Origin: Tubiluchus corallicola
Lineage: Eukaryota > Priapulida > Priapulimorpha > Priapulimorphida > Tubiluchidae
Direction of reading: 5' to 3'
Assembly (NCBI GenBank): GCA_030141605.1
Contig: JAQGDQ010000075.1
Span: forward strand, 648,269-712,268
Length of the DNA stretch: 64,000 bases
Positions 12,600 through 64,000 of this stretch are shown here, in pieces; position 1 is the stretch's first letter; each line of letters starts with the position of its first letter. The notes beneath the pieces are model-generated. The model did not search any database. It worked only from the letters and a program-made list of their open reading frames with translations, and was not told the origin of the DNA. The position numbers were made by a program, and so were the translations under genes.

Positions 12600-13720
<1,121 letters not shown>

Positions 13721-18662: not shown

Positions 18663-18668
18663 TTTATT
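18663..18668 (-). terminator. Candidate polyadenylation signal of the allatostatin-C-type gene
   Basis: AATAAA on the minus strand, about 275 nt after the TGA stop at 18942. It is the first canonical hexamer downstream of the terminal exon that I found. Confidence 0.5.
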
Positions 18669-18941: not shown

Positions 18942-21900
18942 TCACTTCCGTCGACCAAAACAAGAAATTGGGTGAAGCTGCAAAAGAAATAATAAATGTT
19001 CTGTATAGATAGGCACGTACGATTATAGATAAGTACAAAATCTAGCTTAATTCGTTAATTCATTAATTCATTCATTCGTCCATCCATCCATCCATCCATC
19101 CATCCATCCATCCATCCATCCATCCATCCATCCATCCATCCATCCAGTCATTCATTCATTCATTTTTATTTTGTTATTAAGTCAGCCAGTTGGTTGGCAA
19201 GTTAGCTGGTTATTGGGACAGTCAGTCAATCAGTCAGTCCGTCATTTATTTATTTGCCTTTTTCCTATTGTTTCTATCTTGCTTCGTTTCTTCTTCTGCA
19301 TTATGTCCCTCCTTCCACACTTCCTAACCGGTTCTCACATCTTCCTTATGTCCTTCCCTAGTTCGTTTCTTTCTTGTGTCTTTTTTTCTTATTCTCTTCT
19401 CTTCCCTCTGCTCTACCTTCAGCACCGTAAGACATTTCCTTTCCTTCCTCCCTCTTTTTGTACATTTTTCTATCTGCTCCAATTGTTTACTTATTTTTTG
19501 TATTCCGTTTACTCTGTCGATTTAAGCTGAAAGTGAGTAAATCGTTTGATAGTTTTAGAGCTTCGCATTTCAGAGAACATTAAAACAACTGGCAAACAGA
19601 GGCTCCTTTGGTTATCCGAGTGATTCGCATCTGGTAAGGCTAAGCCTGTGACCTGAAATAAATAATGCAAAAAAGGACGGCCTGGCGACCAGCAGACGAT
19701 CAAGTAGACAATTATGCTTGCCTCCATTTTGAATCGAAAATGGCGGATGCGACTCAGATACAGATTTCATTTTAGCATATTTCTATGACGATCCATCGCG
19801 AATTAGCAGAGCGTTAGATTTTCTCGAAAATTATGTTATTTTGAATTCAAAATGGTGGATCGAAAATCCGATTCCGCCAGTCGATGCGAAATTCCTGCTA
19901 GTATGTTCGTGTTAAGTTTCATGACGACCCATTGTAAATCCACGGCATTTTGAAAATAGTCGCCCCAGCAACAATGACAACAACAACAACAAGTTTCAGA
20001 TGAGGAGCGGTTTGAGTCGAGCCTCAACCAAAAGCTGAATTTTTAAGTAGCTTTTCTGCATCTAGGAATGTGCAATTTCAAGAATATAAAAAGTAATACT
20101 TCGGGCAAACTACGAATTTAAAGAAAGGTCCCCAGAGCATAAACCTAGTATATTAAACTCGACAGTTAGCTCTTGACAACTACCCTGCAACAAATCTGTG
20201 ACTTGTCCGTCACGCAATGTAGGCAGGCAATTTTTCGTACAAACTGACTTAAGTTTTAATCAGTGTTATTATCACTTTACATGGTCATCCAGCCACCGCA
20301 AATTCACTAACCTCTAAAATAAAGGCAACATGTAAAGAACCCATGGTCGTACCTTTTTATTCTTAGTCTTTGTATGTTTTGTAATTATTGCATTTGACCC
20401 TCTGTGTGTGACATAAATCGTCTATGTCTGTGTCTATGGTTAAGACCGTTATGCAGCTTAGTTATATAAAATTTCTATCAGAATAAAGGTCTGAGCGTTA
20501 TACATTTAAGTTATTGACTGTTAAAGTTAAAAGACTTTTACCTGACATTTTCTGAAATAATCTCGCTTCTCCGCTAGCGGTTGTACATCTCGTCCTCCTT
20601 CCACTGCTCTCATAATAGCATTGTCTATGAGCATGTTCAACAATCGGTACTGATCTGCACTTTCCTACATAAAAATATAAAATTGTTAAATAATCTGAGG
20701 CAAGCGGAATACATTAATAAATACGTGTAGCTAATTTTAATGTTCTTACAACGTAAAAGAATAATAACTATAGTCGATAATCTTAGTGTAATGGTTGATA
20801 TATTTGACTAGAATCAGAAAGTTCTGGGAATTTTCTCTATCGCCCTACATTTGGAATATATATCGCCCTGTCAGAATACAATACAGTCGTAGGTTCTGCA
20901 AATCTATGAATGTAATATGAATTATTGTTGTACTGTAGAACTATCTTATGGCAAATTTAATTAATGTAAGCCTAATCATGTAAATAGATTCACTATCTTC
21001 CATAATATGATTTTTATTTTGCATATCTTCATTACTAAAGTATTAATTAATTTGTCCAAGTCCTTCTGTCTTCATGAGGATTTAAAAACGTGATTGTTAC
21101 TTCGTTCATTGGGAGGGAATAATTGTGTGGGGTCGGGTTGTCTTTGGTGAACAAAGTTAAATAACACATACCAAGCTTGGTCTGTACGTAGGTGGGTGAT
21201 AGCTAGGCAAACTGCTGCTCGGCTGCTTCACCTGTCATACTGCTATCAGCAATTTATGTACTAAAGGGAATATGCACACTACGGAATATTAGGAATCTGA
21301 CCCTATCCAACCAAGCCCAGATTGGGCGTGGGTTTTCGGCTAACTTCGTTGGCGATCGTAGCGGTGTCATTAATAATTAGCTAGATACCAGTCCCGCCAC
21401 AGTCATTTACTTTAAGTAGGCCCTATACTTGAGTGTTGATCTGGGCTTGCAGAGTGATGAACTGTAGGGCTATAATATGGAAGGAATTTATATTGTAACG
21501 AACCCTTTCCCTAGGGAAATGCAGGTATCTGTGACATCATTTCCCTTTATAGCAAATGGCTTGTACCTGACGAAGCCTGTGCATATTTTAGGCCCTATTT
21601 AGTCTGCTTTACACTAAACTCATTGGTTCAGTTCTTAGTTCCCTGTCATACAGCACGCAAGAAAGGACTTCTGGGAAATTATTACCCGTTAATTTCCGGT
21701 TATGTCGTTCTTTTGATGGTGTTGGGCACGTAAGCTCAGTACAGTAAGAGACCATTCTGACAATAAAAACTAGCAAAGTGTTTAGCAGTTATTAAATGAA
21801 GTATATAAATATAATATTAAACATCTACTGAAAAAAATGAATGATTTAATGAAAAACGAGTAAAAGATATACGCACGAACTGATGCCTATGAACTAAATA

Positions 21901-23912
21901 AGAATGTATCATATAAATGAACAATCGCAGAAAAAAGATTTTACCGTTATTGGTGACAAATTGGTTTTTTGACACTTGTTCTATTGCATTATCATTTGCA
22001 TAAAGAAGAAAGAGATAAATAGACAGAGGAGAAAGAGAGAAAGAAAGCATTAAAATGAAAACATTTTATAAAATGTCGTATAAACCATGTAGTATTTGTA
22101 CTAAGAGCTGCATAATTTCATTTTTCATGTTATTATAAATTGTTCACTCTGTTGTAAAAAGTTACAAACGCATAATTGGTTGATCGACCGGGTCGCGAAT
22201 GAGATAAAAAAGTGTCGTTGTTACATGATGCTTACATGCGATCTTACCTAGGAGTTGGTCAAGCATTAGTTGAAAGTGTGGCTAAGCGTTGCAGAGTACT
22301 CATGGGATAGCAGGGGTTAACCGTAAAACGAAACGTTCGCACAAATATAGTTGACAGGATTCGGGAGTTGGCGTTTTATTTCCAAGAACGTTTTTCATAC
22401 ACCAAATGGCAGCTTTTACGATGTTAATAACAGCAATCATTCAAATTGCCATAGATGGAAAAGTGTAAGGTTTAACTCCTTTGTGGGCTTCTGCCACGTG
22501 ATGTGGCAAAAGAACAGAAACCTGATGCTGATTGATAGTGACAAATCATAGGTTTTATTCGACTTAATCTGCCGATATCACTGACAGTTGCGTTATTTTA
22601 AACCTCGCACCTTTTATCCCTTAAACGTCAGACCATGGAAGTAGGTGTATTTGGAAACAAAAATGCAACGTTATATATACAATTGCATAGTGGCTAAGTG
22701 ACAAATTTTTATGAGAAATGTTCTTTACATAAACAAACAGGAATAAAGACCGTAAAATGTAAAATTATCATAGAGAAGTTTGATTTGCCTGGGTAATTAA
22801 TCAACCCAATGGAGAATAATTCGCGAATTTTGTAATTTTTACTCGTGCTTAAAAAACTTTGTGCATGTAAGGTGTTAAAAAGTAACGCTAAATCGAATAA
22901 ACCACTAAATGGAGTTTCTTAGCTTCCGAGGTTATTATGCGCAAAAAGTGAAGCTTACGATGACTATATATGTAGATTTTTGTTACAAGCAAAAAAAAGG
23001 CTAAAAGATAACAGAGATCAGAAACCATTTACAATGCAAAATGGCTGATGACTACAGAGCTAATATTTTCAAAAAAAAGATCTTCAAGATCAATAAAAAA
23101 ATTAAAATCATTTAGTACTCTTGAAGTATTCGGAAGTGAAAACCGAGTTTGTCCACACAACAAGTATTAATTCCCACTTAGTATTAACTAACGCCGTTAA
23201 TTGCCCCGCAAAATAACCAATCGCAACAAGAAGTACAATGATGTTGAAAACTGGTGAGCTAAGGATATCTGGCGTCCTGAAAGCATATACACACGAACTT
23301 CCAAGAAGGTGACCAGAAATACTAATACAAATAAACGAACTAAATAAATTCAGGATAAATCCGTTCTATTGCACATTAAGATAAATCCATTGTGTTGTAC
23401 CTAAGCCTAATGTGGAGAAAAGGCTTTGGGAGTTGTGAACAGAAAAAAAGTGAGAAACTGCTCCCTATTTTGGTATATTCGTTTTAGTTATCATATTTCC
23501 TTTTTTTTCATGTCGTGACTTAATGCTCTATATAGGTCTTTTGCTCTGTGGCTGTGGCAAACGATGACTATACATGCCACACCAAGTACTGAAGGACTAC
23601 TCATACACAAATTAGGCTTTGTAAATACTTCTTTATGTCTATGCTTAGACGAGGAACAAAATGTCGAGCACTTGAGGTACAGACTCATGTTAACTGATGA
23701 TACTATCACGCAGCAGTTTTTAGTAAGGTTAGACCGAAAAAATTTGAGTAATATAGACGTAGAAAAAAGGTCGAGGACTTAAAGACTTATTTCGTTAGTT
23801 TCGCAATATTATGCGCAGTATTTATATTAACTAAACAAATAGCTAGAAAAGTAATGGGCTTGTATATATTTAAAAATTTGTTGTAAATATGTTGGCTTGC
23901 AAGTAGAGGCGG

Positions 23913-23946
<34 letters not shown>

Positions 23947-26900
23947 TATATTATATTATAAAAATAAAGATTTATTATCATCGTCATCATCATAATATAA
24001 ATATGAATAGATGAACTATGAATATTCAAAATTAATTTATTAATATTAAAAAGTGATTTTTGAATATTTAAACTGTTATTCATAAATGATTTATTACTAT
24101 TAGAAATTCCACTTTGGCGTTCTATATGTTCCATTACCCTCAAACAAAGTGCAGTAGTTATATAACATATTTACTGTATGTAGCATTCGAAAGGCAATAT
24201 TTTCTACATCTCAAGACGCTGATGATCTTTTCACATCATTAGAAATGTGGATGATATTGGGCAAGTCAGATAATATAATAAGTGGGTTTTTAAAACAATA
24301 AGAATTCAAGCTTAGTAGCAAGAAGACAATTTAATATCGCATTCAGCATGGAGGTGACGAAACTTTAAAAAATGTAAATATCTGGGCAGGTTGTTGTGAC
24401 ATTCTGCGGGGTATAATATTAAAGGATAAATTGATTTGTCAGGAATACAGGGCAAACGTTTTCTTTTATCTAAACTGAACACACCACAGTGCATCACGTT
24501 TGGGTAAAAGTAATAAAGAGAAAAATTATTAAGCTTTTCCACACTAATCTCTCAACGCATGGTCTTTTATCCAAAATTACACGAAGGTCCTAGTAGTTTG
24601 GTTAAAACCGGGACGCACGCGTTCTTCGTGCTATTTTCAATGTATTTAGAAATTCAAGAATGAACAGCTGGCAAAGAAGCGTAATTGCTTTTTTATAAAA
24701 ACCACAAATTATTCAATAGCAAACTTAACGAATAAATCAATAGTCACTTCCACATATACGTGTGACAAAACTCAAATCACCCCAAATCTAGGTTAATGAA
24801 AGGTGAGGTAGAGATATTTGCCAGCGTGTGGATCCAGTAGACAGTCCAGTGGACTTAGAGAATGCACCTCAGCACGTTGAGCGACCACGGACCCAGTCGT
24901 CGCGTATATATCTGCACAGAAACTGCTTGTAGCGGCTCACAACTTTGCTGATCCTCCCGCAAACGTGAATTTGACAGGAACTACTATCCCAAAACTTCAA
25001 GCGACTCCGTAAACTCGTGTTTTCCAGGATTCGTCAAAGTTGCACAAGAAAGCGAGAAAACTCTTCGCTTCAACAATACACCTGGAACCCATTGAGCATT
25101 CTCACCCAATCCGATTCTGTTAACCCGGATGCCTGCACTCCACCAGTCCCACTAGCAACCGATGTGGACTCCGCATCCATTCCAAACAAGCCACACAATA
25201 TGAAGCTCCACGGCTACTTTTAATGCTGCGAAAGAACCATCTTGGACTTCTCTCAAAGAAATAGAGAACGTAAACTAAAAATCACTTGTTTGGGATGGCA
25301 GTTATCAAGGAACTGTTTCGCTGCTCCTCTCGATCCAACAGATTACAGGATCACCAAAATCTGCTGCAAAATGTCTTTCCTCTATAGCAGCATAACCTGT
25401 AACGTCAGCAACAAGGAAATCATGGCTCAATGAATCCCCGAGGCGCGAAGATTTACCTGTGGATAACCACTGAAGTCGTGTTAAGGAAGATTGCTATCAA
25501 AAACGGGAAGGAGAGAGGTACTGAAGGATGGGCACAGACCCAACCCCATCACACAACAAAAGTGAACATTTTATTATTAAAGCCATTAATTAAAATGGTG
25601 TACAAATGAACTCCTGAACTCCGGACGAGGCCGACTGTGACGCCACAGTTGTTAAACATTGATGCTAACAGCGCAGGAAGATTCTGTGACACTGGCCGCC
25701 TTATTCAAATCTCACTTACGTTTTTTTGAAAACTCCTGTAGGCAAACTTCTACTTCCTGTCTACATCAGCTGAAGCTGTATGCAGAACGATGAACACTAA
25801 AAGTTAAGCAGCAAAGGAAACAGAATCTTTCCACAGAATCTTTCCACAGAATTGGATATCAAATGGCCTGATGAACTATCCAATACGTATAGAAAGAATT
25901 GGAAAGGCAAAACAAAATCTGAAGACTGCATCACTTTAAATGTGCTCGAGGAATCTCAGATTTACTTACTATACTTGTCTTACTTGAACCAACACAATGC
26001 CCAAAAATGATCAACTACTGACTTATACTGACATACTATCGACTCGCCGCCTTTCAATGTAAGTGCAACAATACATGTGCAACAATACATGTGCAATAGT
26101 GCATGTGCAACAATACATGTGCAACAATACATGAGCAAAAATGTGAGAACAATCATCATACAGTTGCCGAGAAATAGTAAAAACTGTCCCAAAGTACGTC
26201 ATTCAAGCAATCTATCGCGGACATTCTCATTGCTTAACTGCCTTGTGCCACGTGCTACTTGAAGTTCTCCAAGTTCGAAAAAGCCTTTCAGCGATAAATT
26301 GAAGGTCTTCGTAAGTGCCCAAAGCCGCGCCAACATTATTATACCGCCATGCGCATTTAAGTTGTTTACCGCTTTTCCGGACGAAATGGCCAATCGTTGT
26401 GTTATAGCAATGCTATCATTTTGTAATGAAATTGCCTGTTATCATGCACAAAGTCTATGGGCGATCATTGACAATTTTAACTGAGATTTCCAAGAAGATT
26501 GCAATATCCGCTTACCTTCACGTTTTCACGTTTTTGCGCCTAGGATATTACATACGCGTATAATGATCACGCTTATCCAATCATGTATATTACCCACAGA
26601 GGAAAAAACTAAAATAAACTGCCTGAACAAAACAGAGAAGTTATGGCCATTCAAGACCCTAGTCAAGATAACCAACTTGACTTATACCAAAGACCTAAAA
26701 TCTCATTTGTACATTTTTATTACAAAAAGTTTACTGGCGCTGTGTTGCTAACCACCAATAACTTCTAACGTCGCTTTTACACGCTGTCAGAATTTCAGAT
26801 ATGTACACAGGATAAACATTACACAATGGTAAAGAAACAAAAAAATTAAAAACAATTCAAACGTGAATGAAATATATCAAATGTGTCTTCTACACGTAAA

Positions 26901-29900
26901 ATTAAACGTCGTTAAGTTTTTTTATGTTAAAGGCAAAGAAACCAAGTTCCATTCGAACTATTGGTCGAGGGGTACGCTTGAGCTCAAGATTGTGGATTAG
27001 AAATAGAAATGACATCAATGCCGCCATGAATTTAAGATGGCAAATCAAAAGTCAAACTCTGTCAATCAGTGCATAATTCACTGTAGTATATTCCTAAAAA
27101 TTTCCATGATCGAATTGGTAATGCCTTAGGCGTTTCTTCAAAAATGATATTATTGCTGACCTTGAACTCAGAAGGGCGGATCAGTTTATGGATAATTCGT
27201 TTTAGTATATTCGTTGTAACGTTTCGTGACAATCCTATTCAAATTCGCGGAGCCTTAAGCTTTTTTTAAAAAGCCATCCCCAACAATAAGCACAACAACA
27301 TCCACACGAATAACAATTTAGCTAACAGTTCGCTGGATTTTTATATTTAATATACTAATTTTTTTAGCTAAATTTTGTAACATATCCTGTCGCTATATTT
27401 CTCTGTTAAAAATGTGTGTATAGTTTGTAACACTGTTTTATTTGATACAACTAAATTATGAATTATGAATTATATTTCACCAAGAGCAATGGGAGTGGAT
27501 GATTGGTTGCGGTGTATACTTAGCGACAGAAGTTAAGCAACGCCCGACCTGGTTAATGTTGGATAAGCCAAAAAAAACTGCATATTGGCGATTATCATCT
27601 GCCATATTGCTGCTCCGGCAATTTATATCGTTACATCCAAACATGGCGAAGATACGTTTGCCTAACGTATAATCATCTCAGAGGATTAATCTTGCTGATG
27701 AAATGGATTGCTGTCCTAACACTACTGTCAAAATAACATGTAGGCCTTGTCGCATATTCCAGGGCGTGCAACTGCCAAATAAAAGTGGCTAGAAAATCAC
27801 GCCTATTTATACAACTATATGGTAATCATTATAAAACATATAGTTGTCATTAATAATATTCAAGAATATGAACTTATCGATGTCTCACAAATCAAAAATT
27901 GCGGAAATATTTAAAATATCTGAATCTATACCGCTCTGTCTCTATGAATTACAATATTATTTGAGCCGAGTGGTTAGTGTATACGGCGTGTATTTGGCGG
28001 TCGAAATCAAGCAATGGCGAGGCTAGCTAGTGAACGGATGGGTGGTCAGCGGGTTTAATTCTCGCTCTGGACGGTTTCATTTGTCGCTGATTCTAGTTAT
28101 CTACCTCGTTTTGGAAGGATGTAGTCAGTGTCTCAACTTATATGATTAGTTTTGATAATGGGCAGGGCTCTGGTCTTACCACATTAAGTGGCTTCTGGGG
28201 TGGCGTGTGCCAAATTGCCTCAACGTTGCTATACAAAACATACATCTAACTTCACCTTTACGGTTAAGTTGCTAATTTTTAAATGCAACATTAAAAATTT
28301 TACACGTGCAAATTATGTCTGTAAGTTTTCCATAATTGACTTCCATCCCATTTCATTAGTCAGAACCTTTGAGCATTATATGCAAATTGTCCCCAAGTAC
28401 TTATCCATAACTTAAGATTAGTAACTGTTGAACATCAGTACTACGTATATTCAGCGCTGAAATGACCCAAAAAGTTTATTGTTTAATGTTTATTCAACAG
28501 TCATACAGTGATATCAGACTACCATCTTTCAGTGCAGTAAATGATGCTGAATCGTAGAAAATAGTACAACGATTTAATGATTTTATTTAGCACAATAGCC
28601 AGTAACAACAATACATGCCAAGACTCCTAGTAGAAGTTTGTATTAGAAACTTCGCATCAGTAAAACGCGCCTTGATAGATGCTATCAAGCCAAAGAACAA
28701 GTATTTATGGCTTCCATTAAGTTTAATTCACTTCAATATTTCCAAGGGCTGATAATCATTCAATAGTCGCATAACTGTACCAACTAGATTGTATGTCGTT
28801 TCGCCAGGCCACAATTTGCCAGTCTGTCTTTTCGTCAGGGAATCATTTCGCCAGTCTATCTTTTCGCTACTCTGCCTTTTCGCCAGTGCTTCGTTTCGCC
28901 AGTCTATCTTCTCACCAGTCCATCTTTTCGCCAGCCGATCTTTTCGCTAGTGCGTTGTTTCGCCAATCTATCTTTTCGCCATTGATATTGGAATTAGTGC
29001 AATACGTAGGAATGTTCATTATACTGCCAATGGTAATTTTTTTTAATGGTAACTAAGGTACACGTCTATGTAACAAAAACGTCTAAGTTACTGAATCTAA
29101 GAGCATTGCGCGAAGTGGTGATAGAATCAATCAATCTCTATCCAATGCTGTACAACACAGCCGCAACTGCTACAAGGTTGCATGTCGGTACCATAGTTAT
29201 ACTTAAATAGCAGGTATGGGCATTTTTTCCTTAAAACGCTCTGAGAACAGAAGCTATAAGTCGTCCAAAGATGCCCATATATCATCCGATTTGCCGCAAA
29301 ACCTAAAATCAGATGGCTTCACCTCAAATTTACGAATTGAGCTTCGTTTTGCCACAAAATGGCGATAAGTAAGATGCTATAAACCGAAAATGTTCACATT
29401 CAGAATCTGGTAAAATCTTTGGTCTATGGTGCTTAGTTCCCGAGGTACAGATTTTTTTGTAATAACTCAATAACTACTCGACCAAATGTGGCGTGCTTCT
29501 AATCAGGGTATACGGCCATTCTAGCTTGAAGTTTCGGGTCGTGACCCTTTGCCCTGCTTGAGCCATGACCTAAAAATCGTCAAAATAGTGTACTACTTGA
29601 GAAGCCATTACTCCCACAAGAAGCACCGCCTATCCAAACGAGAAAAAAACAAGCACCGTGCATTGGCTACGTGTAGCCGGCGTAGTTTCTGCCCAGACGC
29701 CCTTTCTGAATGGCGCCACGAGATTTGTAAGACTTTTTCTGGGGAGATGCTACAAAATCTTATTTTTAAAATGCAATTACACACACAAAAAGCGCCCTCT
29801 AGCGAACCAAAAAAAAAAACAAGTGAAGTATTGTGTGCTACATTGTTAGATAGACGGACTATCGCCACCTGTCTTGAGTAACATATTGTGTATAATCGTG

Positions 29901-32900
29901 GTAAATTCCAGCAAAAATTATGACCTCGAGGTTCTAATGGCTTCTCGACTTAGTAAGCCAAGGACGTCTCTATCTCGAGTGTTAGCCACTTTCTTCCATA
30001 AGGCTTTCTTCAAGACATATGGATTGCCAAACTAGGCATTTCGACACCTTCACCGATGGCAGCAGTTTAGGGTTCGACAAAATGGAGAAGTGTATCTATA
30101 GCCAAGACAGAGTTGCTTTTTTGTTTGTGACACTTCTTGTAGGTATCATGGCTTCTCAGTGGACATATTTTGACGATTTTTGCGTCATAATTCAGGTTCA
30201 AAGGTTCACGACCTGAAACTTTAAGCTAAAGTGGCCATGTATCCTGGCTACAAGCACGCCAAATTTGTTCGAGTAGCCCTACCTATTTTTGGGTTATTCC
30301 AAAAAGATCCGTATTTCGCAAACTAAGCATCAAAGGGGCAAAAATTTTAACAGATTCTGAAAGTGCACATTCTCGGTATCTAACATCTTACTTATAGCCA
30401 TTTCGTGGAAAAACGAAACTCAACTCCAACTTTCAGATAGAGCATCATTGTATATTTAAATGCGCATATGTGGATTCCACTTTTTAATCTCATAAGATAA
30501 ATTTCTAAGAGCTGCTATCTTATATACAAAAGTTTTGTCCTAAAACAACCGGTAATTAGAATCGTAGGGCTAGGTAAGTTTTACAAGGTTCGTTTTATAC
30601 TAGTAAACTGATTTTTTCTGTATATTCTGCACTATTAAGTTATACAAACAAGTTAGACTCGAACTGTTCTACGAAGGACTCGTTAAACTCAAGATCGTGG
30701 ATTAGAAATGATGTCAATGCCGACTTCTTGAATTTAAGATGGTAACTCATCCGACTCTGTTAATCGGGGCAGAATTCGTTGTAGCATATTCCTGTAGGGC
30801 TTCATGACGATCCATTGCAAATTGGCAGCATCTTGGGCGTTTTTCGAAAATGATCCTTTTCAAAAAGGTCATCCCCAATAACAATAACAACAACATCCAG
30901 AAGAGTAGCGATTTGGGCCGAGTCTCTCGACGAAAATCCCTGAGTCAAAGATTAAATAACTTTTTAGTTTTAATGGCTTAACTTGATTTTGCTGTAAGTT
31001 TTCTATCAAATTTAACTACTAACGTTCTTGTAAATAATTGCTTTCTGTTCAAATTATTACCAATAAAAGGCATTATAACTGCTTCGTGCAAAGTTCTTGC
31101 TTTTCTTGCTATTCAAAAGTTGTTAATCTTTGTTTTCTGACGATCGTGCACTCAATTGTTAATCTCACTGGACTCATTAATAAGTGGGTAGAAGACGTTG
31201 GAGGTGGGCAATTTTACCTGCCATATTGTTCTCTTGATTCTCACGACTGTGGGTTGGGGGTGTATGCGCATGCTGCACCTGTTTGATACCTCTGCTGCAC
31301 CTGTTTTATCCACTAAAAGATTATAATTTGTAAATAACCCCAGTGTTTATCTGCAGTTCATCAACAGTTTACCAGACTGTATTCTTCTTGCTATGAATGC
31401 TGATACTATGAATTCTGCAATCCCAGATAGGTTTGCCCATCCATACGTTGATACAATGAAGGCAAACAATATTATAATTAGTGCAGAAGTCCACGGCAGA
31501 AAATCGCCATAATGTAGAAGTAAGCCATCGCGAATTCAATACAAACTAGTGAAGAGAAAAGATCAGCAGGAAGCCAAGGAAATCCATTATTGAATGTGCA
31601 GATACATCCTGGTGTAACATCCCTCAAACTTTATCTGAAAACTTGGAAAAACTTCAAAAACGTGCCGCTTACATCTGTTCCAAAGCTATGAAACACACAA
31701 ACTCTGATAACCTATTGTTCAAAGTTGGCTTCGACCTCTTGTGTAACAGACGTACATTTCATAGATTGAGCACTTTCATAAAACTGTAAATCATGTTTCA
31801 TCTCCCTTGTTATTTGAGTTGCTACCTCCGATCAATAGAGGTGCATCTGCATATTTATTGAGAAACCGTGACAATTTATTTTTATATCAAGTTCGCTGTA
31901 ATTAATTCCGCTCATTCTTCTTCCCTGCAATCGTGTTTGACTGGAATAATTTACTCTTATATTTAAAGTCAATTCCTACCACCAGTGGGTTTTCAAATTT
32001 CAGTTTTTTTTCAAGAGACCAACTTATTATTCGCATGGTTCTAGACTACACAGCATTCAACCATACACGTCTGAGGGTGGGATGAGCACGAACATTTTTT
32101 CAAAGTTAGCTACCATAAAATCTAGCTTTGTGGGCCTGCTCGTTTGCACCATAATTCCCAGGCAATTCACTACCACAATTAGACCTATGCTCCCTATAGA
32201 CAAACGCTTAATTATTAGATCATATTACAGACATTTACTCTCGAATTCGCGTGCTTTACCGATAATTTGTATGACAAATACGGTCCTTTGACAAAGTGAT
32301 TGAAAGATCGATTGCGTCTGTCAAGAGGCGGACGCATATGCTCGATAAACTACATTCGCTATACCACTGCTGTTGTTCAGCTGTAGACTTTGAAAAACCC
32401 CACAGGTCGTGTGTCGGTGCATTTAAGAAATAACTCAAGCCACTTAATATCATAGCTGAAAAAATACCTGCCACATTCATAATAATGGTGGTGTCATTAA
32501 GTTCGCTAATACCACTTAGTAATGAAATTTCACACTGAGACCACCTTAATAACAATATTGTGGTAAAAAATTAGTAATTTGACAAAGTTAACTAGACCAA
32601 ATATTTCATTATAACAAACCTCACTGGACCAAATCATCCATTATTTGACATCTTAATCTGTAATGTTGCGTGGTGGTGTTTTTCACGTAACTGGTCTTGT
32701 CAATTTTGTTAAATTACTTATTCTTACTAAGATGTGGTACTAAACGTGGTCTCAGTGTGAAATTTCGCTATAGCTACTTTTTACATGTTCCCGAAATTCT
32801 CTAACGAGTCTGTTAAATGATGATGTTTTGCTCTAAAAACAATAAAACAGTTACAAACCTACATCAATTATGACGTCGGTTAGCTTCTCAAGATCTTTTA

Positions 32901-35900
32901 CAAGATATCATCATCATCGACCACCACCATCATCATCATCATCATCAGGATGACAGATTTTATCATTCATTAAGTGATTGACAGGATGACTGACCGACTT
33001 TCTGATTAGCTAAATAAATAACTGAGTGACAGATCGACTAACCGACTGATTGACTGACTAAGTAACTAAATGAAATAAAGCCTGACTCACCAAACCTGAG
33101 AAACAACCTAGCTAGTTATGTGAGGTATAACGTTTAGCATTTCTTAGATGATTTTCTAATCAATGGTTTCAACACAGGTAAAAACTACATAATTTATCCT
33201 GCTTGTAGCACTAAAACGTGCAGTGGTGATGAACACAAGTCGAACAACAGTTTGTTCGCGACACCTAGTACATATATGCGCCAGACACCAATACCGAACA
33301 CATGAAGACATGAAGACCTAGCATTCGCAGTACATGTTCGAAATGTTTACATTATTTTTCATTATTTAACCCCTTACTTTTATAACTACTTTTATGGCAT
33401 AATTATATTCACTGAAATTCATCGTGTAACAAAGGCTTATTAGGTAACAAAGCAGCATGACATAACTGAAATGCTACATTGTGTAACATATTACGTCATT
33501 CGTCATTACGTAACGAATCTTGCGACATTACGTAACAATCATTATGTGGCAAAGTTTGCGCCACACGTAACAATCATTATGTAACAAAAATAATGCATGA
33601 TTACATAGTACTTGATTTTTCTTACGTAGTGATTGTTACGCAATGACGCAAAAATTGTGACGTGTTGATCGTTACATGGTGATGAATTTTGTGATTTGTT
33701 AAACAATCCCGTATTTCCTGATATATAATGCCGAATTTTTACATAATGAACCTTTTGTTACATAATAAACCGCTAGCACTCCTATTTCTGAAAAACAAAA
33801 TCTCCTAATTTAGCATCAGACTTGATGTTTGACTGGTTTACTCGATTCTTAGCCTCTAGTGCTTCTTATGCTTCAAGTTGCTACTCTTACTTCGTGTGTA
33901 TTACGTACATGAACCGATCCAGTGATGTAATTCAGAGTGGAACTATTTGACAAGGGAAGACGCTTGATAGCCGTAAAACAATGGATGGAAATATCGTCTC
34001 TGTTGCTCAAGGCATATCCTGACATTTGGCGGCATATTAAAACGAGCCACTTAATAAAAGATTTCAGTCGTAAGAGCGTGGCTCACTCGACAATTGTCAT
34101 GGTGAAGGTGCTCCAATATGAAAGGAAGTTGTGCGCATGAACTGAATAGTAATGACGCCGTGAGCATCAGTCCTTCGTTTTACAAGTTCACTAACGCTCA
34201 TATTACTTTGATAGTGAGTTAGGTCCCAGTCTCACCACAATCATCCGATTTGAGTAGAACCTGCTGTTGAATGCCGCTTGCAGATTCCGAGTTGTAAAAA
34301 ATTCGGATTTTTCTTTTGTAGTCCACTGACCGAAGGAAACACATATTCGAAGGAAGAGCAGTGTATTCAGGAAGATTCCTTTCGGGAACATGGTAATCGT
34401 AATCATTAAACACGAATTCAGATTCTATAGAGAATGTTCTACGATTTGTCGTAGGCGTTTACTGCATAGGAAGGTCTGCTGTTAACATTTGTTCGCTGTG
34501 CAGAAATAAATAAAGACAATGGCGCAGATTTGATGATGATAATAAATGAAGACAATGATGAACAAAGTGGTTGTCTAAACCGGTAGTTGTGATGTGGTGA
34601 CAGTGATGGTGAAAGTGACAAAGCTACTGAGAGAGGTCGTGGTGCTAGTGGCAGCAATGGTGATGGAAATTATCTAAGAATTGAGAGACTAATCTGCCCA
34701 CATTGATTACTCAGCACAGATGTTTAAATATGCCGTATGAGAAATTTTTTATCCCAAAAATGGTTTACTATATTTTTTATTCTGCCCAAGAATTTTAAAT
34801 GTTAATACAGCAGTTTTCTAAACAGTAAATGACCAGAACAAATCATACAGCATTCTTGATAGTGATCTTGATTAGTGTTCAACAATTCCCAGCTTACCTC
34901 AAAAAGATTTTCCTGAATAATCTACACCGCTGCTTCCAAATGTGTGTTTCCTAAGGCTTTCTCCAGTAAACTTTCCTAAAAGTTGTTCCCAAAACTTCCC
35001 AAACTTTCTCAATAGATACCCTATCTGTAATAACTGCAATCTGAATTATTACTAATATCATGTACTTACAAATGCTTACTCCCCAAATCTTGAAATATGT
35101 GTATCTTTGATTTTTTTAGTAGGTGATAATAAATTAAGTTGCGTTATGTCAAAAATAGAAAAGTATGTTTTGACAATATCAATTTTACATGCAAGCAAAT
35201 CAAAAGAGCTTTTTCTCTGAAACGGCAATATGTCCTGTACATGAGTAATAGCTGAACTACTTGGCCTAAGAATATTGTCTAATTTTTCATTTTTCTGCTT
35301 CATTTTCTTTGAAATATTTTTTTTATTGTTGCGTGTAGAAAATTCTTCTTCTCGTATATTACATGCTGATTATTCTTTAAATTGATTCAGACTCGGTAAT
35401 TAAAGCTTTTTTCGGACCATTACCGTGCAGGCGTATTTGTAATAAAATTTGCATAATCGTTTTCCAAGTTCCAACTGAAAATGGTTCACAGACGGTTTGC
35501 GCTAATGTAAGCATCTTGTATTATCTTTTTCTCTTCATTTCTGCATGAATTTGCCAGTTAAGCAGATATATAGGATAGATACATAGATTACCTACAGAGC
35601 CTACACAGGCAAATAGAGAGGCAGGCGGGTAGGACATGTAAATGTACGTACGTGAATATGTACGTATGATTATAGAAACACAAATTATTTAATACGTAGC
35701 AATTATGTAATTAAGCAGGTACGTAAGTCTTTGAAATTTGGATTTATTTGTTGATCCATTTGGTACGATATTACAATATACAAAATATTACAATTACAGA
35801 ATTGACAATGCATTACAGTGCTATGAGCGTACAGAACAAATTAACTTATACGCTACGCTCATCGTGAATAGGCCTTAACTATGGCATAAACATACTGATA

Positions 35901-38900
35901 AAATTATGCTGGTAAATAAGGTAGAGCAAATGGAGGCGACGCCAGAATCGATGATCTAAACTAAGTGAGTTATTTTTACAGTGTTATGAAGATTAAAATT
36001 AAAATAGTGAACTATAAAAGATAAGGATGTGTGTTAAGGAGCCAGGAGAGCACTCCCATATTTGAAAGTGTATAAATCCAGTAACTGCATAGGTAATAAA
36101 GCAAACAAACAAAAGCACATAACAAAAGACAAGCAAATTGAGAAACAGAAAAACAAGCAAAGAAAAAACAACAAATCAAAAAATCAGCAAACATTTAGAT
36201 TTAGAATAACCTCTGCCTATGTTTTAGCCTCGTCTAATGCCAAAGTCTATGGTAAATATTTTACAAAATAAATTAGAAAACCACAAAGAAGGTAGCAACG
36301 GCAAAGCTAAACAACTAAACTTTACTATTTAATGCTTTAACCGAATAAGGAAAACTAATACAACAGCGAAGCTTTAATAAATAATGGGGTTCGGTGACTG
36401 TCTGTGAGGAAAACACGTACAAAATTAGGTTTATGTAACGAATGTGCGTGAAGTGGATTTAGCGCATCTTGTAATCATATTGTCAATGATTAAATAAGCC
36501 ATTTTTAAAGCGTAGAACTCATGTGAGACTCAAACAGCAAGTTACTCTGTTACTGTTGTATTATAGAAATTACATATACAATTCAGTTATATAATTTTGT
36601 GATAACATGCTTTTATTTACTGGATTAGCAACAGCATCCGCAACAATAATAATAAACAAGCATGGCAACCATATATCAACTGAAACTTACGCTCTTGAAT
36701 TTACGGTAGATTTTTGGGCTTTTATGACCTTTCTGATGTAATTGAGCGAATTCTTTCTGGGTTTGAGAGAAAACGAAAAACGGCAAACGCAAACTTCGCC
36801 TTCCCAGAAATATTAGGGTTAAAATAATTATTCCCCGGGAGATTGGTTAGAAGCAGCTAGTTTAACAGACATTTTCTGGGCTGCCACCGGATCTCTGCAA
36901 ACAGTATAGATATGGTCTGGCGGATTTAATCGTCTTTAGTTAAAGCTTCTTTGTAAGAGAGAATGGAGAGCTTTGCAAAAGTTGTATAGGATTTTCCTGC
37001 GTAATAGAAGATTGTTTCTTGGGGATTGAGTGCGCTTCTTGAGTCTCAACTATTATCGAGAATGCACGTATTAGCTCTTCGTGCAATGAACCAAATGAAA
37101 AAGTTCAATTTTTCATGCACAAAAAAAGCTTACTTTGAAAATAAAATTATGCATCCTATTTTCGATATAAGCTTAACTGAAGATTGATTTCGAACAAACC
37201 CAAGTCGTTTGACCTATACTGAAAATTTTGAAGGTTTCTATAGTATTTGATGACAAGGAACTAACATACGGCTTCGTCTTAACTGCCAAGTTAATAACGG
37301 CATTAGCGTGCATGCGAGCTAACATCAGAGTATTTGGAGTTACTAGTCTTACACGTCTCTCGGGCAAAACAAAAAAAGCTAGAATTGGATCCATGTACTA
37401 AGTTGTTATTAGAATTTAAACCGAAATGCGGCTTCCCATGTTCCACTACGATTTCATATAAAAAACCCAAGTCGCAAAAGTAGTCTAGCTGAGCAACCAC
37501 CTTAGAATAATAGACAATTTACATGCGACTTCTCCGCACTTTTTATACGTTAGTGTTGGGTTAGGTTGGGTTGGGTTAGGTTGAAATAGACAATAGCAGA
37601 GATTTTTGCATTTCTTGTCAGAACTGCGTAAAGTAACTTTCATCATCTCAACCTACGTAAGTAAGTTCATATTTCACAAATGATCATATCGTTTAATCAA
37701 ATTACTTTCATTTCAACTGCAACATTTGAAATTGTGACAGTGTTAAGTGCATGTTTACAGAAACTTTTAAACAATATAATAATTATTATTGAAAATTATT
37801 GAACATTATTTTTATTGATTGTTTGAAAGTTTGAGGCTTAAAGTCGCACATTGATCTTTTTTGATGTGGCTCTTTACCAGACGTCACGGTTTTTTATCTT
37901 TTGGTAAGTTTAGTTTTCAATTCTGTTACTTTGTTGCTACTTTCCTTTAGACGTTTAAATTGAGTAGATGTAAAAATATTTTATGTGAAGCACATTAATA
38001 TATATAAAGTTGGATGATGGCTGAATGACTTTCTTACTAATGGTAAATTATTATTACAGTGATTAACTTGTCGAGCGAGTGTCTTAGAAATGGGCGAGTG
38101 TATTTCTGTATACATGTTATTACATAACTATTCCCTGTTAAAGATATCACCGAAGGCCTGAAACAGATGCCATCAAAGACTTCAAACATATTTTATGTAC
38201 AGCAACATTAAATTGTTGTGCTGTTGTATGTAATAACTTTTTGTTCAGCAATGAATTCGTGCTTCATATTGTTGAAACATGTGTGAATGATTTTCTGTGC
38301 TAAATAAATAAAAGAAAGGTCATATGATTATGCATATTCTTTTCATAATACAATTCAGGCCATTGATGATGCAAAACACTTCAAAGTGAAATTTCGACAA
38401 AACTTTCATCTGAATGCAAATGTTTATAAAGAAAAATATTGAGCAGTCACAAGACAACGGGTTTTCTGAATGACGTGTCAAAAGTAAAAGGTTAAACGTA
38501 TAGATACACTCATCGTCTGATTAATATATAGATGAATGCATTGGCTTCGTTCAAAGACTAAGACAGCAGGACAAACACACTCACCGTACCACTGTTAATT
38601 AGGATTCCATTTGTCCATATTGTCTTCCTTACACAAGACATATCCGACAGACAGTTAGCTCAGCTTCTCAAATTAGGCAGGAAGGGATTACAAAATTGTA
38701 TTACATTTGTATTCACTTATCTGACGTTGGACATTCAAGCGCGAACGTGGGAACTAAATCGCTGGGACGATATGACACATCTTCGCTATTCGTAGTAATT
38801 AAATTTCATATTAAATGAAATATATAGCGAAACGATTTTCTTTTCTTTCCCTCTTTTTTATGAAAATCGGCACCCTGTAAGCCAGAATCTGGCATTCAAC

Positions 38901-41900
38901 GACAGGGCATACTTAACGTTGATGTTTATGGCAAGAACATGGCTACTTACGAATGCTTTAAGATGAACCGCAGAACCAATTACAAGCCAAAGTTGTAAGA
39001 CGTATAGTATGAGTACAGAGATGGCACAAGTAAACTTTCATAATACATTACAATATACGTTGTTTGTAAGGACGAAGAGAGTATAGGTCTAAGTTTCCTA
39101 ACTGATTTTTTTAAATCTCGGTTGTTCACATCAAATGAACGGAAGCAGACTGAATGCTCAAGCTTACTAAGATTTTGGTTTATCCTCATGAATTTTCAAT
39201 TCGTGTAAAAATTAATGAAGCGCAAACTAGAAAATCAGTCAAATTACTACTTGACTGACATGTATAACTCCATTTTATGAAACAAACCTTCGTCTGCTCA
39301 AATTCCCTGCCCGAATAATTCGATTTCTTCAACGATATTTTACCAAGTTGATTAATTTGCAGCGAAATTATCATTTAGAACTGATATGATGCAAATTATA
39401 AGCCTGCTTCCTTAATGACTTCTATTTCAAACACTAATAACAAAAATTGCATGTCTTCGTAATTCCAAACTTTAGAAAATCAAACTGTGTTTCAGTCACT
39501 AATAATGTCGCAGAGAACGTTAAAGTTTCTCAAACGAAGAGTATTAAATGATCCTGCTTCGACGGATTTTCCGCGATTTGCTTAATTAAACAATTGACTT
39601 GTTTGCAGGCGTACTATCGTTTGCAATTATAATTTTAATCTATTCAAATAAAAATCGATAAATCGGTCAAAATTGAGATTAAGTGTCGCAGTATAGTCAC
39701 TGTAAACAGATATCGTTCCTTACAACTAGCCTGTAAAGCAATGATTATTGTGCCATTAAAGGTTGAGTGTTTGTACGAGTGTTTAAAAAATCTTTTAAAG
39801 ATCCGTTCAATTTCTAACTTTGGAGATATTTAAAACTATAGTTGACGTATCCCACGTGAAAATTCGCGTGGTTACGGTAAATAGAAGTTGTGCTTGTCTA
39901 TTTTTACTTGACTTTTTTATTAAAAAGCAAAGAGCAAATAAGACACTTTCAGATTTTAATGTGCATGCAGAGTATTAAAATTGTATTATTATGAAATATC
40001 ATACCACAGCACGCGCATGATCAAATTTTCTTAACAAGAGCAAAGTTAATCATTTTTAATACCAAAACACTAGATTAACTATGTTGATTACATGATTATT
40101 GATTGTTGATAGTTGTTACCTATTGAAAACTTTTTTGTTCTCATTTTACGACTAATTTTACGATGAAAAACGATTCATAACAAGTTTCCAAAAAGTTCCC
40201 ATCTCCTTTAATCGATCCAGAAAAAGTTATATATGTATTTTTTTTCGTAAGTTTTATATATTATATGTATATATATATACATTATGTACATTATATACAT
40301 AATTTCAAAAAGCTCTTTATATTCTAGTGACGGCATAACTCGCAACCGTTGTGTCGTTCAATTTTCATTTTGTGAAAACAGGCCGGTAATTTTAGGTAAC
40401 TAAGGCCCAATATATATATATATGATACAGGCAGCTAATTATTGTTGTCTGTGACGTTAGCTTGACCCTTCAATAGTTTAGCGCCAATAAAATCTTATAA
40501 TAAAACGCATTATGACTATAATCGTAATACGTTTGCTTACATAAAATACTTTCAGAAGTTTATTTGATAAGAGATGCTGCTTAAAATTTTGTCAAAAAAA
40601 ATCAGTTGAATTCTGGATACCGTAATAATTTTGCAAACGATGACAGAAACACAAGGAAGCTAGCTCATAATTAACTCGGAACAAACTGTCAAGCAGAAAA
40701 TTGAGCAACATTACCTGTACGTTTGACGAAGAATGTAGAAAACCATACCACGAAGGTCCCCCTCTGAAGTGAGATCTGTGATGATCGTTACATTTCGCAT
40801 ATTTCACTTATAGATGCACGTATATAAACACTTAGTAACTGTGTCATAGACTTGTACAAAGGGGCAAATTACACAACGCCCCTACACATGTAGTTATTAA
40901 CATTGTAAGGGATTACGAAGCCGTAGAGATATCAAGGAAAAATAAAATGTAACAACAAACCCCTCAATCAGGGTATGCTATAACATAGCCTGGGACAAGC
41001 TGAAACAATGGTAGTTATATTCAGTTATCTGGCAAGATTTTTTAAGAGATTAATAATACGTTTTATTATAGAAACAAGCTAATACACAAATATAGCATGG
41101 CGCGCGTCCCCGGAATAGTGAAATTTTATTTATATTGTACTGATCAAACTTTTAACAACAAAATTATTGAACATAACATCTAGCAATAAATTTAACTCTG
41201 ATAAACAAATGTTATTTAAAATTTAATGGTGATTGCCGGTGAGTGATGGATTAGTAACTGGAATCGCCGGAGTCGAAATTCTGGCATGTAATTAGCGAAA
41301 TGGCTCTGTTGAACAACAGCGTTACAACTAACCCCAAGAGGAGTTTTCTACTGATAAACCATAATTTAAAAAATACTTCAGGATTTAAAAAATTTGTTTT
41401 CGCAAAGCGTAGTTGATGGACAATACTTTCTTATTTGCTACTTAACAACATTTGAAACAGCGTACTTTAATTAACAGATCAAATATTGCAAAAAAGCAAA
41501 AATTTACTTTCAACTGTTAAAACCGTCTCGAGCTCAGAACTCTACTCAGTACACTAAACACATCATCACTGACACGCATATAATAGAACGGTTGCCCAAA
41601 TGTCATTGTTACCCATGAACCCTCAGCCAATGATAACGGAGATATAAAGGCTGTTTCAGCTTCCACGTGTTACATTCACCCCGGCCTCACCTATGGTAGA
41701 ATGAAATCGACGCTTGTTACAGTGTAAAATGTTGCTGCAGTGCTCAAAAGTTTAAATTATAATTGATGTTATCTAAACAAAATAACAATTGTTTAACATT
41801 AATAACAATAGCAATAAAAAATAACAACACCCGCTTAAGTAAAACTTGTACACCGTTGTGCAATAAAAAAAATTTTTATCCTAAGTTTCTTACCTCCTCG

Positions 41901-41974
41901 TCTGGTTCCGCTAAAGCCGCACTGATAAACAAAACAAACGCGAAAAAGCTGGTGAAAAACATAACGTTTTGCAT
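18942..41974 (-). CDS. AstC: Allatostatin-C (PISCF)-type neuropeptide precursor, three coding exons
   Basis: CDS exons 41974..41894, 20664..20542 and 18977..18942 encode a 79-residue secreted neuropeptide precursor. All junctions are phase 0. Donors are GAG|GTAAGA and CAG|GTAAAA; acceptors are TTTTTATGTAG and TTTCTTTTGCAG. Exon 1 (27 aa) is a signal peptide with core [17 protein letters not shown], then EPDEE. Exon 2 (41 aa) is acidic propeptide ([14 protein letters not shown]...) ending [10 protein letters not shown]. Exon 3 adds [11 protein letters not shown]-stop. Predicted cleavage after KR gives [14 protein letters not shown] with a Cys6-Cys13 disulfide. Gly before RRK predicts C-terminal amidation. 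C-x6-C plus PISCF is the allatostatin-C signature; the single peptide at the precursor end is also typical. The family acts through somatostatin-like GPCRs. Intron 1 is 21.2 kb and TE-rich; intron 2 (1.56 kb) splits the Cys ring. Allatostatin-CC paralogues are the main alternative name. Confidence 0.85.
19080..19146. repeat. (CATC)n microsatellite
   Basis: About 67 bp of CATC repeats inside AstC intron 2, flanked by degenerate ATTC and GTCA tetranucleotides out to about 19050 and 19240. The long plus ORF at 19171-19530 is a low-complexity by-product. Confidence 0.97.
19728..20045 (+). mobile_element. Dispersed repeat family R, copy A (two monomers)
   Basis: Contains ATGACGATCCATCGCGAATT and, about 130 bp on, ATGACGACCCATTGTAAAT, followed by CGCCCCAGCAACAATGACAA, a CAA run, TTTCAGATGAGGAGCGGTTT and GAGTCGAGCCTC. 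The same order occurs at 26955-27330 and 30655-30975, so this is an interspersed repeat with a CAA-rich 3' part. The family is not recognised. Confidence 0.65.
20041..20541. other. AstC intron 2, 5' part, nothing further seen
   Basis: Unique-looking AT-rich intronic sequence between repeat copy A and the donor of exon 2. No other feature can be supported. Confidence 0.5.
21115..21480 (+). mobile_element. 5S-rRNA-derived SINE copy (S3), longest body
   Basis: The head around 21150-21200 (ACAAAGTTAAATAACACATA, then CTTGGTCTGTACGTAGGTGGGTGATAG split across the region) resembles the 5S internal promoter. The body contains ACCAGTCCCGCCACAGTCAT and GGGCTTGCAGAGTGATGA, shared with the headless copy at about 34215-34305. 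It lies in AstC intron 1. Confidence 0.5.
21481..23559. other. AstC intron 1 sequence, no gene seen
   Basis: Short ORFs at 21817-22050 (minus, hydrophobic) and 22351-22551 (plus) lack splice or homology support. Nothing else recognised. Confidence 0.45.
23560..23784 (+). pseudogene. Possible LINE C-terminal fragment
   Basis: A plus-strand ORF contains [18 protein letters not shown] followed by NVEHLRY. It resembles the post-RT zinc-knuckle region of jockey/I-type LINEs (RLGLxxxPxCxCGxxEQTVEHxLxxC), with one Cys replaced and the rest lost. Short and diverged; this is a motif-level resemblance only. Confidence 0.35.
23914..23960. repeat. (TA)n low-complexity tract
   Basis: A TA dinucleotide run followed by ATTAT units in AstC intron 1. 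Confidence 0.95.
24825..25560. other. GC-richer unclassified block, probable decayed mobile element
   Basis: Base composition is visibly closer to 48 percent GC than the AT-rich surroundings. Two consecutive short plus ORFs (25017-25223, 25242-25433) look like a broken coding region, but I recognise neither. The block lies inside AstC intron 1 and may be transposon-derived. Confidence 0.35.
26063..26146. repeat. 14-bp minisatellite, six units
   Basis: Units of GTGCAACAATACAT repeat six times. The third unit is variant (GTGCAATAGTGCAT) and the last is degenerate. Confidence 0.93.
26199..26480. other. GC-richer block with overlapping short ORFs
   Basis: The minus ORF at 26199-26393 (ending [18 protein letters not shown]) and a plus ORF overlap here. 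Neither is recognised. Composition differs from the flanks as in the block at 24825-25560, so both may be parts of one decayed element. Confidence 0.25.
26955..27330 (+). mobile_element. Dispersed repeat family R, copy B
   Basis: Shares GAGCTCAAGATTGTGGATTA, GACATCAATGCCG, GAATTTAAGATGGCAAATC and the 3' part CATCCCCAACAATAAGCACA with copy C at 30655-30975. Like copy A it seems to hold two monomers. Confidence 0.6.
27485..27640 (+). mobile_element. 5S-rRNA-derived SINE copy (S4), best-preserved head
   Basis: GACAGAAGTTAAGCAACGCC followed by CGACCTGGTTAATGTTGGAT (27526-27565) is a close match to the 5S rRNA A-box/IE region. The position inside an intron and the related copies nearby indicate a retroposed SINE rather than a 5S gene. 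Confidence 0.7.
27950..28215 (+). mobile_element. 5S-rRNA-derived SINE copy (S5)
   Basis: GAGCCGAGTGGTTAGTGTAT leads into TCGAAATCAAGCAATGGCGA and GTGAACGGATGGGTGGTCAG. The order of boxes is that of 5S rRNA. The body continues with TCTGGTCTTACCACATTAAG, similar to the S3 and S6 bodies. Confidence 0.6.
28793..28985. repeat. TTTCGCCAGTCTATC minisatellite
   Basis: About a dozen degenerate 15-16 bp units of TTTCGCCAGTCTATCT. They are open in one plus frame (FASLSFR-type peptide) because the unit contains few stops; not considered coding. Confidence 0.85.
29337..30423. mobile_element. Long-arm foldback element (inverted repeats of about 290 bp)
   Basis: The left arm (29337-29628) and right arm (30130-30423) are reverse complements along their whole length with moderate divergence. 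Shared blocks include TTGAGYTTCGTTTTKCCAC, ATAAGTAAGATG, TTCAGAATCTG, AATTTGGCGTGCTT-type and AAAAATCGTCAAAATA. The 500-bp centre has no recognisable ORF. It is a non-autonomous foldback or TIR element in AstC intron 1; the flanks may extend the arms a little on both sides. Confidence 0.8.
30655..30975 (+). mobile_element. Dispersed repeat family R, copy C
   Basis: Carries CTCAAGATCGTGGATTAG, TTCATGACGATCCATTGCAA, GGTCATCCCCAATAACAATA, then CAACATCCAGAAGAGTAGCG and GATTTGGGCCGAGTCTCTCG. This is the most complete single monomer plus 3' end of the family. Confidence 0.65.
31560..32300 (+). pseudogene. LINE ORF2 3'-end remnant (jockey/CR1-like)
   Basis: Across several frames the plus strand gives [13 protein letters not shown] (31640-31672), [14 protein letters not shown] followed by [19 protein letters not shown] (31855-31960), and HTRLRVGMSTNIF (about 32060-32100). 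These match, in order, the [28 protein letters not shown] and HTRLRLGxSxLNxHLF blocks that end many non-LTR retrotransposon proteins. Many frameshifts and stops are present. It is inserted in AstC intron 1 opposite to the host gene. Confidence 0.8.
32524..32766. mobile_element. MITE with 21-bp perfect terminal inverted repeats
   Basis: GAAATTTCACACTGAGACCA plus C at 32524-32544 is exactly inverted at 32746-32766. Internal sequence adjoining each arm is also inverted, less perfectly (GTAATTTGACAAAGTTAACT against its counterpart), giving arms of about 80 bp. There is no ORF inside. The superfamily and target-site duplication are not resolved. Confidence 0.75.
32906..33085. repeat. (ATC)n tract and degenerate GACT tetranucleotides
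   Basis: ATC/CCA triplets at 32906-32947, followed by degenerate TGACTGAC-type words to about 33085. Confidence 0.85.
33420..33770. repeat. TTACGTAAC / GTTACATAA word cluster
   Basis: At least ten occurrences of (A/G)TAACAA, ATTACGTAAC or their complements, e.g. CATTACGTAACAATCATTAT. It looks like a degenerate repeat with both orientations. Confidence 0.55.
34145..34330 (+). mobile_element. SINE body without clear head (S6)
   Basis: GTCCCAGTCTCACCACAATC, GATTTGAGTAGAACCTGC and CGCTTGCAGATTCCGAG align with the body of the SINE copy at 21115-21480. The 5S-like head is not clear. Confidence 0.45.
34480..41893. other. 5' half of AstC intron 1, nothing coding found
   Basis: AT-rich sequence with GATGGT-type low complexity at about 34530-34670, a short GTTGGGTTAGG run at about 37553-37583, TA-rich runs near 40255-40300 and 40420-40433, and degenerate GTAC words near 35640-35670. 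A donor/acceptor-bounded 49-nt stretch at 40715-40763 (minus) would break the frame if included. No other gene signal. Confidence 0.5.
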
Positions 41975-42094
41975 AGTGACTGTAATTCTTTCTTTACAAT
42001 GCTTCCAGTAAAAATTTAAAACAATGAAAAATTCTTAAAGTCCTTTTCTCCTGTGTCTTCTAGTATGCTTCTCCTGTCCTCTTCTTATCACCCA

Positions 42095-42172
42095 CTCAAC
42101 TGGATTGTCTACTCTCCTTATGATTTATATCTTTCGTTAGCCGCGGCCACGTGACGATTATTAATGACGTCA
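42095..42172 (-). promoter_or_regulatory. AstC core promoter with TATA, initiator, E-box and full CRE
   Basis: On the minus strand, TATAAA lies at 42129-42124. The sequence CCAGTTG, with its A at 42101, fits the arthropod-type initiator (TCAGTT, one mismatch) 28 bp downstream. Upstream are CACGTG (42148-42153) and a perfect palindromic cAMP-response element TGACGTCA (42165-42172), about 65-71 bp from the predicted start. The predicted 5' UTR is about 126 nt to the ATG at 41974, in a locally CpG-rich stretch. Confidence 0.65.
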
Positions 42173-42179
42173 TCACGCG

Positions 42180-43168: not shown

Positions 43169-43220
43169 TCTTATCTTATCTTATCTTTTCTTGTCTTGTC
43201 TTGTCTTGTCATGTCTTGTT

Positions 43221-43251
<31 letters not shown>

Positions 43252-63886: not shown

Positions 63887-64000
<114 letters not shown>

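Follow-up and report, generated by a model that had tools for sequence, protein, structure and literature searches.

The gene model and its promoter

The window, i.e., the whole stretch of 64,000 nucleotides that was analysed, carries on its minus strand a gene whose three coding exons, spread across 23 kb, join into a precursor of 79 amino acids followed by TGA. The coding part of exon 1 (41974-41894, 81 nt, 27 residues) holds the start codon, the putative signal peptide and the first acidic residues, and directly after the signal peptide comes intron 1 (20665-41893), 21,229 nt long. Exon 2 (20664-20542, 123 nt, 41 residues) codes for the propeptide, the KR cleavage site and DYFRKCQ, with the first cysteine of the ring. 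Intron 2 (18978-20541, 1,564 nt) falls between the codons of the two ring cysteines (CQ / LHPISC), and the coding part of exon 3 (18977-18942, 36 nt) supplies the last 11 residues, LHPISCF, a putative amidation Gly and RRK, and the stop codon. Both introns are GT-AG, lie between codons (phase 0) and have good flanking sequence, with donors GAG/GTAAGA and CAG/GTAAAA and acceptors TTTTTATGTAG/GAA and TTTCTTTTGCAG/CTT for introns 1 and 2, respectively (the slash marks the splice site). An earlier note had proposed these exons, their matching phase-0 splice sites and the general layout of the precursor (signal peptide, acidic propeptide, KR, a 14-residue peptide, Gly, RRK and stop); when the exons were read on the minus strand and joined, every coordinate turned out to be right and the translation had the layout described.

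The N-terminus of the precursor is hydrophobic (mean Kyte-Doolittle 2.03 over residues 3-22), which fits a signal peptide, predicted here from hydrophobicity alone. The propeptide is acidic, with a net charge of -7 over residues 23-59, and the dibasic KR60-61 immediately precedes the single C-terminal peptide. This mature peptide has 14 residues, with the ring CQLHPISC and a PISCF end, and is followed by Gly. The pattern [PAV][IV]SC[FYW] occurs only once in the six frames of the whole window, and that occurrence is exon 3. As judged from the pattern, the first candidate polyadenylation signal is an AATAAA on the minus strand at 18663-18668, ca. 275 nt past the stop codon, and two further copies of AATAAA are found beyond 1.9 kb past it.

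Some other characteristics of the introns deserve mention. If intron 2 were retained, the frame would read CQVKVF and then a stop (20664-20527, minus strand), giving a precursor without the ring. Intron 2 also contains a perfect (TCCA)17 repeat (19079-19146), about 100 bp upstream of exon 3. Inside intron 1 there is an inverted pair (29337-29623 and 30133-30423) that is 78% identical over 297 bp, together with a weaker pair (26983-27095 and 30688-30793), and both are possibly remnants of transposable elements.

Upstream of the start codon, elements reminiscent of a promoter are found in the order TGACGTCA (42172-42165), CACGTG, TATAAA, CCAGTT and ATG (41974) along the coding strand. The first one (42165-42172) is palindromic, matches the consensus cAMP response element (CRE) and is the sole exact copy in the window, located 35 nt upstream of the candidate TATA box (TATAAA, 42124-42129, minus strand), with an E-box (CACGTG, 42148-42153) between both. 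The initiator-like CCAGTT (42098-42103, minus strand), whose A lies 28 nt after the start of TATAAA, is a candidate transcription start; the E-box, the TATA box and the initiator were all recognized by pattern only. Since 0.83 copies of TGACGTCA are expected by chance in 64 kb, finding one is unremarkable and only its placement is of note. The pairing of the CRE with the TATA box had been noticed first and was tested post hoc. When bases 1-54400 were shuffled 300 times, 19 shuffles had a TATAAA no more than 60 nt after a CRE; when only the 1,000 nt preceding the ATG were shuffled, a CRE located 20-80 nt ahead of a TATAAA was seen within the last 300 nt in one of 3000 cases. Assuming that transcription starts near 42101, the CRE would be at -71 to -64. 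In the rat somatostatin promoter the same element is described between -58 and -35, upstream of the TATA box (PMC7312888), and according to a passage of PMC5740062 the genes with a proximal CRE and TATA box are those efficiently induced by activity in neurons. The arrangement found here recalls the rat promoter, a resemblance that is suggestive only. A scan of 41900-42400 for promoters and terminators of bacterial type found none, which is uninformative for an animal gene.

A tandem array on the plus strand (54538-63821, within the region 54397-63872) extends over 9.3 kb, with ca. 148 copies of a 63-bp unit (88% matches) that translate as repeats of TTEEPVVTTEEPLITTEAAV. The first frame begins with an ATG, has a hydrophobic N-terminus and stays open for 1191 aa; the same repeat is carried on by five more frames of 198-759 aa, with stops or frame changes in between. 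The product resembles a giant secreted protein of mucin-like type, rich in Thr and Glu. Pfam was run on ten ORFs, nine of the 167 stop-to-stop ORFs of at least 60 aa and the first ORF of the array; the latter matched the antifreeze beta-roll family (E 2e-51), probably as an effect of low complexity. At the other end, two exon-like ORF copies on the minus strand (1633-1888 and 5415-5670; 83% DNA identity over 257 bp) encode a Gly/Tyr/His-rich repeat (YTPLNRYHPLYGSPLNNSPGEHGYPDRD...), for which no Pfam family was found, and near 4900-5000 the minus strand has a third stretch rich in Gly and Tyr (YGLQYGSGYGYGGGSHSGGYGG). This points to a small group of secreted proteins or proteins of cuticle type. 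Simple repeats without mismatches are present at 12999-13124, (GA)63, and 63888-63987, (CA)50, and an array of 76 TCTTG units with 90% matches is located at 43169-43549. Rfam and tRNA scans of the window found nothing.

Relatives of the precursor

That the three exons form one gene is supported by proteins that match the spliced reading over its full length. We searched the joined model of 79 residues against 5.77 billion proteins; only two candidates passed the word filter and both matched. The first, P0001, has also 79 aa and is 89% identical (E 6.1e-40). It sits on a contig of 1,141 nt in which the 79-residue reading is uninterrupted. Since introns of 21 kb and 1.6 kb do not fit into such a contig, P0001 presumably represents the spliced transcript of some related animal and, as such, supports both junctions; its source tag, ‘lgn’, would correspond to an assembly of public reads. 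The second, P0002, is the ‘prohormone-1-like isoform X2’ of Priapulus caudatus, with 83 aa and 57% identity (E 1.9e-17). The name of this entry implies that another isoform exists in P. caudatus. The gene model and its frame, as put forward in the earlier note, are thus backed by an uninterrupted counterpart of the same length and by a full-length match in P. caudatus.

Exon by exon, the identity to P0001 is 22/27, 37/41 and 11/11 residues, and to P0002 14/27, 25/41 and 8/11 residues. Signal peptides and propeptides usually diverge fast; here the similarity to P. caudatus runs through both. With a priapulid as the sole named match, the window very probably belongs to Priapulida or a closely related group, and probably not to P. 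caudatus unless this is a paralog. The sole indel among the three aligned proteins, four residues in length, was placed by the aligner at the boundary of exons 1 and 2, although its exact place in the acidic stretch is uncertain. Residue 69 of P0001 is Leu, as encoded by the first codon of exon 3, while a read-through of exon 2 would place Val there, and in P0001 this detail favours splicing. The P. caudatus protein, with Val followed by NPISCF, does not discriminate between splicing and read-through.

An unguided tblastn of the raw window, with either P0001 or the P. caudatus protein as query, retrieved the three exons as matches 1, 2 and 3; they share a strand, and their order agrees with that of the query. 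As a control we used 100 dinucleotide shuffles of bases 1-54400, which were pooled into a single database and searched with the E cut-off likewise set at 50. This cut-off conceals weak matches, and only 43 (P. caudatus query) and 32 (P0001 query) of the 100 shuffles reported any. The best shuffle scores were 27.3 bits with P. caudatus and 25.8 bits with P0001. Exons 2 and 1 were above them with both queries (51.2 and 29.6 bits with P. caudatus, 79.3 and 47.8 bits with P0001), whereas exon 3 was above them with P0001 only (30.8 bits). With the P. caudatus query exon 3 scored 24.3 bits, a value exceeded by 4 of the 100 shuffles and therefore at chance level, which is unsurprising in such a short piece. 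The matches that followed the three exons did not exceed 21.9 bits, within the range of the shuffles.

Other searches with the precursor added no relatives. Pfam gave no family up to E 10, and the two PDB matches (best E 0.21, Cell division control protein 15) are not meaningful. When the search was widened with the alignment of the three sequences, 14 candidates were obtained, of which only P0001 and P0002 matched again at E up to 10.

The identity to P. caudatus, only 57-59% over the precursor compared to 89% for P0001, could be taken as an indication that the gene is a second paralog, not orthologous to the P. caudatus prohormone-1-like gene, i.e., that priapulids have two genes of the allatostatin-C (AST-C) type. 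Three paralogs are described as common in crustaceans (PMC6008092, PMC11959706). We consider this unlikely. Both protein searches returned one and the same P. caudatus protein, 12 of the 14 mature residues are identical to it, and 57% could be explained by the divergence between genera. Neither a scan for PISCF-like patterns nor tblastn showed a second AST-C-like exon inside intron 1 or elsewhere in the window, and none of the 14 stop-free C-x6-C stretches preceded by a basic pair (outside the array at 54.4-64 kb) contained SCF. A ring interrupted by an intron escapes the C-x6-C scan, whereas the other two methods can detect it. A local duplicate was thus not seen within these 64 kb, a result that applies to the window only. 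A second paralog would, in any case, be compatible with the explanation as a neuropeptide gene.

The gene was read here from DNA and might be a decayed or non-expressed copy. We find this very improbable, given that the frame is open, the splice and cleavage sites are intact and exon 3 is identical to P0001 in 11 of 11 residues, and since the introns are retained it is not a retrocopy. Finally, a chance assembly, in which GT-AG sites were freely picked until a neuropeptide-like reading emerged, could invoke the shortness of the exons and the weak score of exon 3 with the P. caudatus query, but it has practically no probability and is ruled out by the end-to-end match of the whole spliced reading to two proteins and by the first ranks of the same three pieces in the unguided tblastn, to which can be added that the single indel falls, as placed by the aligner, where exons 1 and 2 meet.

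Membership in the allatostatin-C family

The earlier note had ascribed the gene to the allatostatin-C family, proposing a homology search as a check. The tblastn with the relatives had placed the three exons on top, and for the family itself we carried out a profile-profile comparison with 12 lepidopteran AST-C precursors chosen among 60 returned proteins. The region of the mature peptide matched with a probability of 95.6% (E 1.1e-8, score 48.9), far above 200 column-shuffled versions of the insect alignment (best score 20.2, best probability 6.8%). The profile alignment covers residues 58-76 only, and beyond the mature peptide the insect precursors showed no similarity. Together with the presence of CQLHPISCF, with two cysteines six residues apart (C-x6-C) in one C-terminal peptide as is typical of the AST-C type, this bears out the assignment.

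The first intron of the gene points in the same direction. An N-terminal phase-0 intron is given as a conserved feature of SS/ASTC genes (PMC7536072, section 3.3), and intron 1, after residue 27, corresponds to it. In the beetle Nicrophorus the first coding exon of AST-CCC is described as containing the signal peptide plus a few residues and the last exon as containing the peptide (PMC6585902). The genes of D. melanogaster and C. elegans have a second intron of phase 2 in the C-terminal part, and the passage of PMC7536072 in question also names a mollusc gene without ascribing a phase-2 intron to it. Intron 2 of the window differs from these and counts against the assignment, being in phase 0 and inside the codons of the ring. 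A second intron of phase 2 is not universal and therefore not defining for ASTC genes.

P. caudatus P0002 has the same layout over its full length and shares KRDYFRKCQ and PISCFG, although with four extra residues. Arthropod AST-C shares with the window the Cys-x6-Cys, the PISCF end and the KR before a single C-terminal peptide. Its forms are VRFRQCYFNPISCF in most of the aligned Lepidoptera and pQIRYHQCYFNPISCF in lobster, the latter described as not amidated. Unlike AST-C proper, with its free-acid terminus, the window and both relatives have Gly after PISCF, while all 12 aligned Lepidoptera read SCFRK. Lobster AST-CCC, SYWKQCAFNAVSCFamide, is amidated, but ends in AVSCF instead of PISCF and is identical in only 5 of 14 residues. 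Vertebrate somatostatin is also a cyclic peptide with an N-terminal phase-0 intron in its gene and, in the rat, a CRE upstream of the TATA box; its ring has the FWK core by which chordate somatostatins are recognized (PMC7536072), whereas the ring residues here are QLHPIS. NLP-99 of C. elegans has a Cys-x6-Cys ring with P-x-S-C and acts on the Gi/o-coupled receptor NPR-16 (PMC13082328), but it is identical in only 4 of the 14 aligned residues and its end is different.

Over all 14 residues the nearest arthropod peptide was lepidopteran AST-C, with 8 identical residues and a BLOSUM62 score of 46, followed by AST-CCC (41), lobster AST-C (38), AST-CC (29) and, from C. elegans, NLP-99 (26). In the five residues that precede the first Cys, AST-CCC was the nearest of the arthropod forms (+11), with lepidopteran AST-C at +7 and lobster AST-C at -1. 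The peptide thus appears as a mosaic that combines the PISCF end of AST-C and an amidation Gly with a front nearer to AST-CCC. With so few residues, this is a hint and not a phylogeny.

Taken as a whole, this is almost certainly a working gene for a neuropeptide precursor of the allatostatin-C/somatostatin type in a priapulid or a close relative. It is a further member of a known family and not a new kind of thing; its less usual features, namely an intron that splits the codons of the disulphide ring and the combination of PISCF with an amidation signal, are of modest interest.

Predicted processing and significance

From the precursor a processing pathway can be proposed. The signal peptide would be removed after ALA, a prohormone convertase would cleave after KR61, RRK would be trimmed by a carboxypeptidase and the exposed Gly converted into an amide, while the two cysteines would form a disulphide closing a ring of eight residues. 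P. caudatus reads FGGRK where the window has FGRRK, and its processed C-terminus may be different, i.e., not necessarily the same in all three proteins. The cyclic amidated product would be released from neurons or gut endocrine cells to act as a modulator, and by analogy with the family its target would be a Gi/o-coupled receptor of the somatostatin/AST-C type. The candidate CRE/TATA promoter would couple transcription to cAMP or neuronal activity. One could go further and see in the priapulid gene the state before the arthropod triplication, a single gene for a peptide in which the AST-C ring with PISCF is joined to two traits of AST-CCC, the amide and the front x-Y-aromatic-basic-x-C, under a CRE/TATA promoter of the somatostatin plan, inherited from a common bilaterian SS/ASTC gene, but we regard this as a rather improbable speculation.

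NCBI already lists the relative from P. caudatus, under the automatic name prohormone-1-like. Surveys of ecdysozoan neuropeptides exist and may list a priapulid allatostatin C, and we make no claim to a first description. In the titles and abstract openings of the open-access papers searched, no description of one was found; the one paper in which Priapulus, neuropeptide and allatostatin C occur together, PMC6188537, refers to Priapulus in connection with achatin in the passages concerned.

The case illustrates that raw sequence allows the reading of a neuropeptide gene whose coding exons, 27, 41 and 11 codons long, are scattered over 23 kb. Since priapulids evolve slowly and are an outgroup to arthropods and nematodes, an intact AST-C gene in them helps to reconstruct the ancestral ecdysozoan peptide.
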